Assembly: GCF_021228295.1 (NCBI RefSeq) | Contig: NZ_JAJQPD010000004.1 | Span: forward strand, 248,001 to 312,000 | DNA length: 64,000 bases | Origin: Agromyces humatus | GTDB lineage: Bacteria > Actinomycetota > Actinomycetes > Actinomycetales > Microbacteriaceae | Direction of reading: 5' to 3' | Part shown: piece after piece, positions 22,514 through 26,106 of the stretch | Position numbering within the stretch: position 1 is the stretch's first letter | Layout: each line of letters starts with the position of its first letter | Translations under genes and position numbers: made by a program | Notes under the pieces: model-generated | The model's database searches: none | The model's input: the letters and a program-made list of their open reading frames with translations, nothing else | What the model was told of the DNA's origin: nothing

Positions 22514-23003
22514 CGTTACTCCACGGCTGGGCGGACGTCGGTCGTTACCATCCTGCCCGACGGTTCGCTGCGATGCGATCCCTCAAGTCTGTGACTGTTG
22601 AACGTGCATGAGGGATCGGTGAGTGCGCAGGCCCCCGGCGATGACTCCCTTCGGTGAAGATGGCTGTGCGAGGCGAGTCGGTGGGCTGTTTGTCGTCGCG
22701 ATAGCGAATTGCAGTCGGTGTGTCGGGCTGCGTAGCGGCGAGGGGATGCACGGAGATCGGCTGAACCAACGAGCTCACCGTGGACATCACCGGCATGCAA
22801 CCAGCCGAGATTGCCGCGATCGAGCTCTGCGGTGGCTACGCCTGTCGTCATCACAACGACCACGCTGTCGCCGTCGCAGTGATCGAAGGCCCCGCGGGCG
22901 GCCGGGATACTGCTCGCCGATGCAATGTCCGCCGTCGACTTGTACTTATGAGGCGTCACAACTTTGTGTTAGACATGTGACACAACCTTGGACTGGAGAC
23001 GAT
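22514..23003. other. Intergenic stretch carrying the promoter/operator of the membrane protein-GntR operon
   Basis: 490 bases between two divergently read genes. Several short frames are open on both strands (for example 22780-22980), but none has a ribosome-binding site plus recognisable product. The last ~40 bases hold an inverted repeat and probable promoter for the next operon. The rest shows nothing identifiable and may be decayed sequence. Confidence 0.5.
22964..22985. promoter_or_regulatory. Inverted repeat, putative operator for the GntR protein
   Basis: TTGTGTTA and TGACACAA (six-base perfect arms TTGTGT/ACACAA) flank AGACAT; TAGACA inside it could be a -10 box. It is 19 bases before the ATG of the membrane protein gene whose operon encodes a GntR regulator, so autoregulation is likely. 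Confidence 0.5.
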
Positions 23004-24044
23004 ATGACGTGGGGCAACATCTTTTCGATTGGCCTGAGCGAGCTGGTGGCTTTCGCCTTCTCGCTGCCGTTCTTTTCGCTGGTGGTGGCCTCGCTGATCG
23101 TTGCGGGCGGGCTTCTCGTGGTTCGTCTGCGCGAAGGGCGGGGTCGAACACCTCGGCCTTCCGCAGCCGACGCGGCTTCGGTGGCGGCGCGGTACCTGCC
23201 TGAGCGCCGTGCGCTCGGTTTCGGCGCGATCGGGGTCGTCGTCGTGTTCGGGATCGAGAACGTCGTCCGGGGATACCTCCTGAACCTCGTCGACATCGTG
23301 GAGTGGTGGCAGTACGCGACCCCGGTGTTCGCGGCGTTCCTCAGCCTCTCCGTGGTGCTGGCCATGATCGCGTTCCGAGGCACCACCCCGCCCGAGCAGC
23401 CGGTCGTGTCGGGCGCACGCCGCTCCTGGACGACCTACGGGTCCCGGATCTCCATGCTCAGCGCCGGCGCGGCGCTGGTCGGGCTGCTCGGCACGACCAT
23501 CGCTGCCGGCCTGGCATCGTCAGCTGATGAAAGGGGGCGGTACATCTATCTCGCGATCCCCGTACCGAATACGGCGATCGACCCGATCCGTCCGTGGTTC
23601 TACGGGTGGGGCTTCGGCGTACCGGTCCTCGTCTGTGTCGCAGCGCTGGCCGTGGTGACGTGGGCGACACTCCGCGGCAACGCGATCAGGCCCTTCATCC
23701 GCCCGGAGACGGTCGGGGCAGAGCAGATCGCGCGCACTGAGGTCGCGTCCGCGGTCCTCCGGATCGCAACCGCAGGCATGCTCCTCGCACTCGCCGGCGC
23801 CTGGCGGTTCATCGCCCGGGCCGGATCCGCGTCCAGTTTGGGGGTCGGGGATGAGTCGGGGGGCCGTACCGAGTACGACCTGGCCTGGCAGTGGGCGGAA
23901 TTCGCCATCGCAGCCGGCTGGCTCGCGCCCGCCATCGAGATCACGGCGTTCGCCCTCCTGATCCTGGTCGCGAGCCGACTCCGTCGCGAGCACACACTCG
24001 AGCGGTCGCCCGAGCGCACACCCGACAGGGAAACCGTGCGATGA
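23004..24044 (+). CDS. Polytopic membrane protein of unknown function, partner of a GntR regulator
   Basis: A 346-residue protein with about seven hydrophobic segments (roughly 13-38, 66-90, 98-122, 145-170, 200-226, 255-276, 305-330), no signal peptide and short loops; the tail is charged (RREHTLERSPERTPDRETVR). ATG 23004 has GGAGA upstream. I do not recognise a family with certainty; membrane proteins beside short YtrA-like GntR regulators are often DUF1648-type or bacteriocin/antibiotic-response proteins. The stop overlaps the start of the GntR gene (ATGA), and a 34-residue peptide gene ends the operon. Confidence 0.65.
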   Translation: MTWGNIFSIGLSELVAFAFSLPFFSLVVASLIVAGGLLVVRLREGRGRTPRPSAADAASVAARYLPERRALGFGAIGVVVVFGIENVVRGYLLNLVDIVEWWQYATPVFAAFLSLSVVLAMIAFRGTTPPEQPVVSGARRSWTTYGSRISMLSAGAALVGLLGTTIAAGLASSADERGRYIYLAIPVPNTAIDPIRPWFYGWGFGVPVLVCVAALAVVTWATLRGNAIRPFIRPETVGAEQIARTEVASAVLRIATAGMLLALAGAWRFIARAGSASSLGVGDESGGRTEYDLAWQWAEFAIAAGWLAPAIEITAFALLILVASRLRREHTLERSPERTPDRETVR

Positions 24045-24466
24045 GCGCTCAACCGATCCTGCCGCCGGACGAGACCAGCCCGGCGCTCGACATCTACCAC
24101 CAGTTCCGCGGCCTCATCGCCTCAGGCCAACTCGGCGCAGGCGAACGGCTCCCGACCGTCCGGCAGACCGCGAGCGACCTCGGCGTTGCCCCCGGCACCG
24201 CGGCGAAGGCGTACAAGCTGCTCGAACGCGACGGGCTCGTCGTCACCCGCACCGCCGCCGGCACCCGAGTCGCCGAGACCGCGGCGATACTCCCCATGCC
24301 CGTGGTACGACGCATCCGCGACCTCATCGCCGCGGCGCAGACGGCCGGCGCCGACCCCGAGGATGTCATCGACGTTCTCCGCATCACCTGGCAACCGCGA
24401 CCACAGCAGGCCGACAACCAGCCAACCGACACCCCATCCGACGCTCGAACGCAACCTCACAGCTGA
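24041..24466 (+). CDS. GntR-family regulator, YtrA subfamily
   Basis: A 141-residue short regulator. The winged helix reads YHQFRGLIASGQLGAGERLPTVRQTASDLGVAPGTAAKAYKLLERDGLVVTRTAAGTRVAE (about 16-76). The C-terminal part (~65 residues) is too short for the large effector domains of other GntR subfamilies, matching YtrA-type proteins, which usually repress an adjacent membrane transport operon. Translationally coupled (ATGA) to the membrane protein gene and followed 29 bases later by the 34-residue peptide gene. Confidence 0.85.
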   Translation: MSAQPILPPDETSPALDIYHQFRGLIASGQLGAGERLPTVRQTASDLGVAPGTAAKAYKLLERDGLVVTRTAAGTRVAETAAILPMPVVRRIRDLIAAAQTAGADPEDVIDVLRITWQPRPQQADNQPTDTPSDARTQPHS

Positions 24467-24495
24467 CCCAAATGACTCGACGAAGGGAACACACC

Positions 24496-24600
24496 ATGAC
24501 CGCAGCGCCCATCGACCCCGCCGGGATCGCACTACCTCCGACCGTGCCGATCGACATCACGGCCTACCTCCCTGATCCCCGCGACGAAGCGACCGCCTAA
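24496..24600 (+). CDS. Conserved 34-residue peptide, paralogue of the peptide at 25996
   Basis: A 34-codon frame with AAGGGAA six bases before the ATG and a TAA stop. The peptide contains IDPAGIALPPT, PIDITAYLPDP and ends RDEATA; it is acidic, proline-rich, lacks cysteine and any hydrophobic export signal. It is 21 of 29 residues identical to the peptide at 25996-26106, and 13 of those 21 shared residues use different synonymous codons, strong evidence that both are translated and selected. It is the last gene of a membrane protein / GntR / peptide operon. No family is known to me; a signal peptide, regulator ligand or modified-peptide precursor are all possible. Confidence 0.75.
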   Translation: MTAAPIDPAGIALPPTVPIDITAYLPDPRDEATA

Positions 24601-24676
24601 GAACGGATTCGGCGACTCAGGCGGTCCGGCGAAGGGCCGCAATCTACAACGGTGCAGCGGCGCCGGTCAGGGTAAG

Positions 24677-24707
24677 GCGCCCGCAAGCCCGACCGACTTG
24701 CGGGCGC
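24677..24707 (+). terminator. Hairpin terminator
   Basis: GCGCCCGCAAG pairs with CTTGCGGGCGC across nine bases, 76 bases after the first peptide gene. It would end the membrane protein-GntR-peptide operon before the second cassette starts at 24835. Confidence 0.7.
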
Positions 24708-24834
24708 TGATCATCGGCCTCGGGGCGTTGCTCCGCCGAACCGCGACGGATATCCCGAGACCTCCACCGATCTGCTGGACGTTTCTTCGCTCTGCGGACA
24801 TGTACCTAGTGAGACCATCAAGCGGGGAGAAGAC

Positions 24835-25440
24835 ATGGAACATGTCAACCTGGACGAGCGTCTATCGGCAGCGGCACCGTCGGTCATGGCCCTCGACCGC
24901 GAATTGGACACTGCACTCGACAGAGTTCTCGAGCAGCGAGTGCGGACCACGCCGCGACGGCATAGACGGACGCTGCTGGTGACCGCGGCAGCGTCCGTGC
25001 TGGTGTTCGGCGGGGCATCCGCCGCACTGGCCAGCCCGTCGTTCCAAGAGTTGCTCAAGGGTATGAGCCTTGATCGCTCCACGGCGCTCGTCGGTGAGTC
25101 AGGTCAGGACTGCGCCACCGGTTGGGTGATCAAGGCAGAGCCAGGAGTCCCAGCTGATGATCCCGTCGTGCTCGAGGCGCAGAAGATTCTGCAGGCGATG
25201 GACATCGACTCCATCCCGATCGACCCCGTCACGTTGCAGGAACAGCGAGAGCTTTCGGACCGGTTCGCAAAGGCAGCGGCCGCCCGAGGCGAAGACCCGG
25301 CAGACCTCACCTGGAACGACCCTGAGCTGAGCGCGCTCCACAGTGCCGTCACATTCGCCGTGTTCGACCGTTTGACGGCCGAAGGGTACGACGCCAGCAG
25401 GATCCACATCGAGGGCGTCGCCGATTGCGTGGCACCGTGA
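24835..25440 (+). CDS. Putative anti-sigma-like membrane protein
   Basis: A 201-residue single-pass protein. The cytoplasmic N-terminus (1-45) contains LDRELDTALDRVLEQRVRTTPRRHRR; the transmembrane helix is about 46-66 (TLLVTAAASVLVFGGASAALA); the outer part has two cysteines (QDCATGW, ADCVAP) likely disulfide-linked. ATG 24835 follows GGGGAGAAG. No zinc anti-sigma motif is seen. The stop overlaps the GTG of the sigma factor gene (GTGA), the basis for the inferred anti-sigma role. Compared with the first sigma operon the order is reversed. Confidence 0.6.
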   Translation: MEHVNLDERLSAAAPSVMALDRELDTALDRVLEQRVRTTPRRHRRTLLVTAAASVLVFGGASAALASPSFQELLKGMSLDRSTALVGESGQDCATGWVIKAEPGVPADDPVVLEAQKILQAMDIDSIPIDPVTLQEQRELSDRFAKAAAARGEDPADLTWNDPELSALHSAVTFAVFDRLTAEGYDASRIHIEGVADCVAP

Positions 25441-25979
25441 ACGACGCCCAGGCACGTTCACACTACGAATCGGCCGTCCGAAGCAACATGAGAGATCTGC
25501 TCGCCTACCTTGAGCGGCGAGTCGAGGTCAGGGCCGATGCCGCCGAGTATCTCAACTATGCGCTCCTCGCGGCGTGGAGGAAGCGCCGGCACATTCCCGT
25601 GGGCTACGAACGGCCGTGGCTGTTCGTCTTCGCACGGAACACGCTCCTCAACGCCCGGAGGACCGCCCGACGACGTAGCGCGCCAACGGATCAGCTACGA
25701 AACGTCCTCGCCCGCGACAGCGGCCACGAGAGCCTCTCCACCCCAGAGATCGTCGAGATCCGCACCGCTGTGGCCCTACTGCCCGATGAGCTGCGCGAAC
25801 TCGTCGAGCTCGTGCATTGGGAGGGGCTGACGATCGTCGACAGCGCGCGCGTGCTCGGCGTGCATCCTTCGACGGCTCGTTCACGGTACGCCAGCGCGAA
25901 GCAACTGCTCCGTCGTCAGCTCGGCGACGAGGAGGAACCGACGACAGCCGTCACAGCCCTCATCGCAATGAGCGCTTGA
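25437..25979 (+). CDS. ECF-type RNA polymerase sigma factor
   Basis: A 180-residue sigma-70-family protein. Region 2 includes LLAYLERRVEVRADAAEYLNYALLAAWRKRRHIP and RPWLFVFARNTLLNARRTARRRS; region 4 includes LPDELRELVELVHWEGLTIVDSARVLGVHPSTARSRYASAKQLLRRQL (about 117-165), a helix-turn-helix. It starts at GTG 25437, overlapping the preceding stop, so it is co-translated with the anti-sigma-like protein. The second small conserved peptide gene follows after 16 bases with its own strong ribosome-binding site. Confidence 0.85.
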   Translation: MNDAQARSHYESAVRSNMRDLLAYLERRVEVRADAAEYLNYALLAAWRKRRHIPVGYERPWLFVFARNTLLNARRTARRRSAPTDQLRNVLARDSGHESLSTPEIVEIRTAVALLPDELRELVELVHWEGLTIVDSARVLGVHPSTARSRYASAKQLLRRQLGDEEEPTTAVTALIAMSA

Positions 25980-25995
25980 ACCCGAGGAGGATGAG

Positions 25996-26106
25996 ATGAA
26001 TCAACCACCCATGCGGATCGACCCCGCAAGCATCGAACTCCCACCAACACAACCCATCGACATCACCGCGTTCCTTCCGGACCCGGCCGACGAGACGCCT
26101 GGGTAG
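25996..26106 (+). CDS. Conserved 36-residue peptide, paralogue of the peptide at 24496
   Basis: A 36-codon frame from ATG 25996 with AGGAGG five bases upstream, an almost ideal Shine-Dalgarno. It contains IDPASIELPPT, PIDITAFLPDP and ends ADETPG. Against the 24496 peptide, differences in conserved positions are largely synonymous, and Y/F is swapped conservatively. No export signal, no cysteine, net acidic. Last gene of an anti-sigma / sigma / peptide operon, mirroring the membrane protein / GntR / peptide operon 1.5 kb upstream. An ATG at 25991 yields only two codons and was rejected. Confidence 0.78.
   Translation: MNQPPMRIDPASIELPPTQPIDITAFLPDPADETPG

Follow-up and report, generated by a model that had tools for sequence, protein, structure and literature searches.

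What are two short, related open reading frames (ORFs) doing at the ends of two different regulatory operons of one bacterium? The question arises in a stretch of 64,000 nucleotides from Agromyces humatus (contig NZ_JAJQPD010000004.1, positions 248,001 to 312,000; hereafter, the window). One ORF of 34 residues (peptide 1, MTAAPIDPAGIALPPTVPIDITAYLPDPRDEATA; 24496..24600, plus strand) follows a gene pair for a polytopic membrane protein and a GntR-type regulator, and one of 36 residues (peptide 2, MNQPPMRIDPASIELPPTQPIDITAFLPDPADETPG; 25996..26106, plus strand) follows a pair for a single-pass membrane protein and an extracytoplasmic function (ECF) sigma factor. As judged from their sequences, the two ORFs belong to a real family of short peptides in Microbacteriaceae, which apparently is unnamed. 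With a little less than even confidence, we propose that its members are dispensable but selected output peptides of regulatory operons, above all those of ECF sigma factors, that would act in trans on a shared partner encoded elsewhere.

The two peptides had been described in an earlier note as paralogues, and its measurements were reproduced: an ungapped alignment from IDP pairs 29 residues, 21 of them identical and 13 of these 21 with different codons (BLASTP 2e-13). Peptide 1 starts 29 bases past the GntR stop (24466) and peptide 2 starts 16 bases past the sigma stop (25979), in agreement with the gaps of 16 to 29 bases given before. The same genome (4.04 Mb) encodes a third strong copy (C16:205416-205517), identical to peptide 1 in protein sequence and located behind another ECF sigma gene, while a fourth match (C16:213113) is weak (E 0.017), lies within a longer frame, and was not counted. 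Similarity between peptide 1 and the C16 copy at the DNA level reaches from 16 bases ahead of the start codon to 6 bases beyond the stop codon (BLASTN), and the conserved unit is therefore the ribosome-binding site together with the ORF. Matches were found in 21 of 60 Agromyces genomes including this one (E<=0.01, 13-row profile) and in 60 of 398 Microbacteriaceae genomes covering 27 of 85 genera (E<=0.001, 30-row profile; about 0.4 false matches expected), compared with 2 of 296 genomes of a phylum-wide set, both of them Agromyces. When GTDB species genomes were scanned for PPT[QE]PIDI, 65 stretches matched, and the 34 loci confirmed among them all belong to Microbacteriaceae, including Agromyces, Microbacterium, Leifsonia, Curtobacterium, Cryobacterium, Glaciibacter, Naasia, and Frigoribacterium.

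The analyses below used 104 peptide ORFs in the window and in 99 further stretches that were fetched (100 in all; cited by L numbers where needed) at a 14-bit cut, which excludes roughly a dozen and a half of the weakest rows of the 398-genome search; L127 and L199 yielded none. The 102 distinct sequences share the core [IV]DP[AS][AD][ILV]xLPPTxP[IV]D[IL][TS]x[YLW][LVI], in which P8 (96%), L13 (89%), P14 (91%), T16 (93%), and D20 (98%) are most constant, and the C-terminal part varies between genera while this core stays conserved. Shine-Dalgarno-like 4-mers precede 82 of the 104 copies as compared to 15% of random positions, with a choice of start codons that favoured such sites, and the best codon score of all six frames falls in the true frame for 85 of the open copies. 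Nonsynonymous relative to synonymous differences per site (pN/pS) amounted to 0.26–0.43 in 10 of 15 groups (with peptide 1 counted in two of the 15), 0.53–0.60 in three, and, in the two groups that adjoin HisN, 0.66 and 0.92; the ratio is 0.29 for the two window copies. Computed in this way, selection acts at the protein level in most groups, and the conserved short ORFs beside GntR or sigma genes with a ratio of substitution rates (dN/dS) well below 1 that the earlier note had proposed to look for were found for most groups. That the ORFs are chance or decaying sequence, as their patchy distribution and two decayed copies could suggest, is hardly credible given 104 open copies, 85 of them with the best codon score in the true frame, and conservation across 60 of the 398 genomes.

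No family in Pfam or NCBIfam covers either window peptide, and 30 family members had no match in Pfam and three chance-level matches in PHROGs (E 0.14–0.37, one member each). Plasmid records gave no peptide match, and no paper describing the family was found in a literature search of journal articles; as first supposed, the family appears to be an undescribed one. ORFs of such length are often skipped by gene callers. Some resemblances were set aside. Matches outside the family but within the same order (21 genomes, E 0.0028–0.09) were taken as chance, and those translated lie mostly within longer frames; a near-match, A-I-x-P-A-A-I-x-P-P-x-T-A-P-I-D-H-T-A-W, recurs weakly in longer frames of other families of the order (L064, L068, L074, L075, and L082) and was likewise taken as chance. 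All four matches of a PDB sequence search are mitochondrial uL15 proteins with PTQPIDLTQLV (best E 0.15), which resembles the peptide core (residues 112–122 of chain P in 4v19) and was judged a probable coincidence. The idea of a sigma-factor mimic, raised when MAFFT placed the peptide over the sigma linker, was rejected at an hhalign probability of 0.1% for peptide versus sigma.

Where do the copies reside? The next upstream gene lies on the same strand for 84 of the 104 copies, and 44 of these 84 genes end 40 bases or less before the peptide's start codon or overlap it. A same-strand upstream gene within 60 bases is found for 45/104 copies versus 282/1010 called genes as a baseline, and 13/104 copies are followed by a same-strand gene whose start lies no more than 60 bases away, versus 246/1010, which places the peptides at operon ends. 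Hairpins 3' of the stop codon showed no clear difference between 103 peptides and 702 other genes (Mann-Whitney p 0.051). By Pfam, the nearest upstream genes of 73 loci include 18 sigma factors, 5 response regulators, 3 HAAS, 2 PadR, 2 GntR, and 2 TetR genes, and the second upstream genes of 46 loci include 12 sigma factors, 6 PadR genes, 5 histidine kinases, and 1 response regulator, as opposed to 2 sigma factors and 2 response regulators in a control set of 73 genes drawn from these loci. Summed on the assumption that each locus contributes once, sigma, response-regulator, PadR, GntR, or TetR genes are found in either upstream position at about 48 of the 73 loci; by eye, MerR, LacI-type, and Xre-type genes were also recognised as neighbours. 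The copies thus mostly follow regulator genes, ECF sigma genes foremost, in line with the earlier suggestion of a common, translated-looking peptide in different regulatory modules. Non-regulator hosts are present as well, namely amino-acid permease, phosphoketolase, inositol phosphatase, and MMPL genes.

Each of these tallies covers its 25 commonest Pfam families and builds on gene calls of our own simple caller, with errors at L047, L110, L119, and L121. The nearest-gene tally took 71 of 83 called genes (dropping 11 same-locus copies and a 52-residue call at L188) with L047 replaced by hand, and L110 and L121 were added by hand to give 73, with L119 (GntR) outside the tally; the second-gene tally took 46 of 54, without L035, L037, L187, L192, L193, L200, L202, and L210, and the control tally 73 of 96 randomly drawn genes. 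Two placements stand apart. At L188 (4105-4530, minus strand), a 141-residue ORF has the core at its N-terminus in place of a free peptide, and in genus g142 (L169, L175, L180, L184, L185, L187, L192, L207, and L210) the peptide occupies a conserved place after RsgA-like and inositol-phosphatase-like genes, under weaker constraint.

The window holds one example each of two kinds of host, all genes being on the plus strand. Peptide 2 is the last gene of an operon that comprises the single-pass membrane protein in anti-sigma position (24835..25440; 201 residues, no Pfam family, cluster C0) and the sigma factor (25437..25979; 180 residues), whose GTG start overlaps the preceding stop codon. The latter is a short protein with sigma-70 regions 2 and 4, as an ECF sigma factor should be, with Sigma70_r4_2 (PF08281) above its cut-off (25437-25976; 7.7e-9, 35.5 bits versus 25.7) and PF04542 slightly below (1.2e-4, 22.2 bits versus 24). 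Peptide 1 is the last gene of an operon that comprises the polytopic protein (23004..24044; 346 residues, no Pfam family, homologues upstream of GntR in L120 and L122) and a GntR regulator of 141 residues (24041..24466; PF00392 at 6.7e-13 over 24041-24463, above cut-off), which is YtrA-like by size and context. As in YtrA-type GntR modules, this short GntR protein is encoded together with a membrane protein; the two genes share 4 bases. Both regulators named in the earlier note were thus recovered by Pfam, whereas neither membrane protein has anything above the Pfam cut-off and no recognised anti-sigma domain was found above cut-off in the 201-residue protein (Pfam and NCBIfam), so that "anti-sigma" here refers to its position and to one apparent membrane segment read by eye. 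The palindrome GTGTTAGACATGTGACAC ahead of the polytopic/GntR operon (22966..22983, plus strand), which has a similar counterpart before the same operon in L120 and L122, is a candidate GntR operator.

How peptide 1 came to follow a GntR gene is suggested by its ribosome-binding segment ACGAAGGGAACACACC (24480..24495, plus strand), the 5' limit of its homology to the L033 and L117 copies, as BLASTN similarity begins at -16. In those copies, the matching segment encodes the last codons of a sigma gene (the protein ends in ...QYERNTP). Since the segment matches the last sigma codons of L033, peptide 1 may be the remainder of an operon like that of L122, with polytopic, GntR, anti-sigma, sigma, and peptide genes in a row, or it may be a copy moved from a sigma operon, which would look identical.

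How firmly is the peptide bound to its hosts? Relatives of the window sigma (E<=1e-25) occur at 17 places in the 60 Agromyces genomes, 8 with an intact peptide behind them (including an in-frame fusion), 2 with a decayed one (L253 and, as judged by eye, L262), and 7 with none. Of 18 places with GntR homologues in these genomes, 3 have an adjacent intact peptide, 1 has a peptide behind the following sigma pair (L267), 1 has a weak candidate (L278, 9.9 bits), and 13 have none. As an intact copy is missing at 9 of the 17 sigma places and none is found at 13 of the 18 GntR places, the peptide is an optional companion and not a core part of these modules. This bears on the proposal that the peptide binds and tunes the adjacent regulator or membrane protein, with a separate partner in each operon, as a small co-regulator or ligand of the kind suggested in the earlier note. 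The strong linkage to regulators as compared to control genes is what it would predict, and at L121 (6880-7578, minus strand) an ECF sigma ORF without a stop codon continues in frame into the peptide, either as a natural sigma-peptide fusion or after loss of the stop. An AlphaFold2 model of this fusion gave block means of 55–69 for the peptide part (from about residue 199) and no evidence of docking, with no alignment depth for the peptide part. Speaking further against a co-regulator, the identical core type stands beside unrelated folds, many homologous regulators lack a peptide, the peptide has no profile similarity to sigma factors, its tail, in Agromyces, tracks the genus and not the module, and it has been retained where the sigma factor was lost. 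Taken together, we consider such a role unlikely.

The loss of sigma genes can be followed at a syntenic locus of four Agromyces genomes (aldehyde dehydrogenase, amine oxidase in three of four, permease ... peptide ... TetR; names partly by eye), where the sigma pair has been deleted while promoter and peptide were retained. L034 preserves an 86-residue fusion of the anti-sigma start to the sigma end, with 91% identity over 47 sigma residues; at L037, nine sigma residues remain, and at L035 and L118 the apparent former anti-sigma leader stands immediately ahead of the peptide. Differences between these junctions imply that the deletion took more than one step. Over the last 26 codons, L035 and L118 differ at 12 of 21.0 synonymous and 5 of 57.0 nonsynonymous sites (Fisher p 2e-5), L037 and L118 at 7 of 21.9 and 1 of 56.1 (p 4e-4), and L035 and L037 at 6 of 20.8 and 6 of 57.2 (p 0.06), in comparisons that are not independent of each other.

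The retained promoter is a candidate one, recognised by a common element. In the window, GGACGTTT followed by CGGACAT N7 GTGA (24777..24812, plus strand; the GGACGTTT part compared by eye) forms a candidate ECF-type promoter whose CGGACAT begins 40 bases ahead of the anti-sigma start codon. CGGACAT-N7-GTGA occurs three times in this genome and its reversed pattern not at all; two of the copies (window 24795-24812 and G000:C16:206731-206748) precede the two anti-sigma/sigma/peptide operons, and the third overlaps the start codon of an unrelated called gene. We regard this sequence as a likely ECF promoter. Across the Agromyces stretches, CGGACAT lies 90 to 20 bases ahead of 12 of 547 called genes, nine of which open a sigma module or, at L034, what remains of one, at a distance of 36–45 bases. 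It also stands directly before 6 of 36 Agromyces peptides, none of them sigma-led: 43–44 bases ahead at the deleted loci L035, L037, and L118, and 79, 79, and 62 bases ahead at L039_7948, L046, and L049. At L039 (7948-8545) and L049 (7003-7594), a lipoprotein-like gene begins 4–10 bases after the peptide, with the element CGGACATAT in front. A variant pattern, built from known sites, was found 32 times in the 60 Agromyces genomes versus 8 times for its reversal. Sites at 30 loci were returned, 13 inside a called ORF and 17 outside; of the latter, 13 precede genes of anti-sigma type, as identified by eye, by 38–45 bases (L301 being the remnant), 2 stand directly before a peptide (L293 and L294), and 2 before neither (L307 and L317). 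Of the 13 anti-sigma-type operons, 5 end in an intact peptide, 1 in a decayed one, and 7 have none within 1.5 kb. We infer that the peptides are expressed and that the sigma factor controls them.

Does the variable end of the peptide tell the operons apart? For 51 copies with module labels assigned by hand (some of them weak, such as L038, and that of L181 checked afterwards), similarity in tail columns 23–34 averaged 2.53 for copies of the same genus in different modules (200 pairs) versus -1.80 for different genera with the same module (316 pairs), while the core columns were similar in both comparisons (2.66 and 2.84). A C-terminal E[PAT][TSPVC]x pattern is found in 29 of 36 Agromyces copies versus 2 of 68 others. 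Since Agromyces contributes 25 of the 51 labelled copies, the tail result is mainly an Agromyces result.

A conserved core with a C-terminal part that varies across genera, next to sensor modules, would also be expected of an intercellular signal peptide that is exported or processed through a common motif and carries a variable end. The constancy of the end across most Agromyces operons would not separate such signals, and neither a signal peptide nor a hydrophobic stretch was visible by eye in the window peptides, which were judged without a prediction program; we hold a signalling function to be distinctly improbable. The same arrangement could be read as a leader-like core with a variable end in a precursor peptide that an enzyme acting in trans would modify; a modified-peptide precursor was another of the earlier suggestions, and we consider it very improbable. 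No modifying enzyme is among the 25 most frequent families of upstream genes, the genes that this tally covered, and LanC occurs in 2 and YcaO in 3 of the 60 Agromyces genomes with G018 (LanC) as the sole peptide carrier among them, which weakens the suggestion for these two enzyme classes only.

In the output-peptide model, each ORF would make a short cytosolic peptide with the conserved core DPxxIxLPPTxPIDIT that is probably unfolded on its own; the AlphaFold2 model is an extended chain without a fold (mean predicted local distance difference test score 82, predicted template modelling score 0.26). The peptide would act in trans on a partner common to the copies and not on the adjacent regulator, and the most economical model is that the linear core motif binds one host protein. 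ECF sigma operons would be the main home of the peptide, and other regulators would have recruited it. Alternatively, the ribosome-binding site and ORF may be mainly a spreading cassette, kept because it propagates itself or because it brings a weak, generic advantage at the ends of operons. Homology limited to this unit, identical proteins behind two unrelated regulators in one genome, the patchy distribution, and the decay of the copies at L253 and, as judged by eye, L262 fit this explanation, which selection on the amino acid sequence despite high synonymous divergence renders quite unlikely. A bolder version of the output-peptide model appears unlikely to us: in Microbacteriaceae, many unrelated regulatory operons would end in a copy that is expressed with the operon, and all of them would report via LPPTxPIDIT to one protein that integrates several signalling systems.

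Several observations weigh against an output peptide with a shared partner. The patchy distribution, with no match in 39 of the 60 Agromyces genomes, is not by itself explained by a general partner, and copies beside metabolic genes, GntR, response regulators, and PadR require a separate recruitment step. Constraint is weak in the two groups beside HisN (dN/dS 0.62 and 0.89) and intermediate in three more (0.40–0.56), in groups that were gathered by protein similarity, which lowers dN/dS. Regarding the promoter, 8 of the 13 promoter-bearing anti-sigma-type operons are without an intact peptide, the variant pattern derives from sites already known, and CGGACAT was upstream of only 4 of 9 sigma operons inspected in other genera (L163, L167, L201, and L202). 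Loci without the sigma pair came to light by way of their peptide, so that deletions removing the peptide as well would go unseen, and common descent within the genus could be the source of the shared Agromyces tail.

ECF sigma/anti-sigma operons are autoregulated. In this family, such operons are the commonest host, with the common element 36–45 bases before the first gene in Agromyces, and they differ from the usual arrangement in a third gene, that of the peptide, which persists after loss of the sigma pair and is found with unrelated regulators as well. In Streptomyces, DUF397-type small proteins adjoin Xre-family regulators (WhiJ-like sets). They resemble the peptide as small proteins linked to a transcription regulator with many paralogues per genome, but are larger and tied to one regulator class, and the 30 peptide family members match no Pfam family. 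Modules of PadR/HAAS or YtrA-type GntR regulators with membrane proteins are further hosts, and we know of no small peptide described for either. Another tiny actinobacterial peptide with an ECF sigma connection is PepX of Streptomyces venezuelae, whose deletion changed the expression of several ECF sigma genes (PMC11256431). PepX is a hydrophobic peptide of 19 residues encoded at a conserved locus between transglycosylase and ABC transporter genes, and the sequence printed there does not resemble the peptide family (PMC11256431).

Neither in Pfam nor in NCBIfam is there an entry matched by members of this family, which was itself detected in 60 of 398 sampled Microbacteriaceae genomes. The deletion series at one Agromyces locus constitutes a natural experiment that separates the peptide from the regulator and allows the function of the peptide to be tested directly. 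We regard the peptides as a new family of small proteins that falls into an established kind, that of small proteins linked to operons. If the copies do share one partner, ECF sigma, two-component, PadR, and GntR systems would be tied together by a mechanism of which we know no described example, and the family would be categorically new should the partner prove to be a shared hub.

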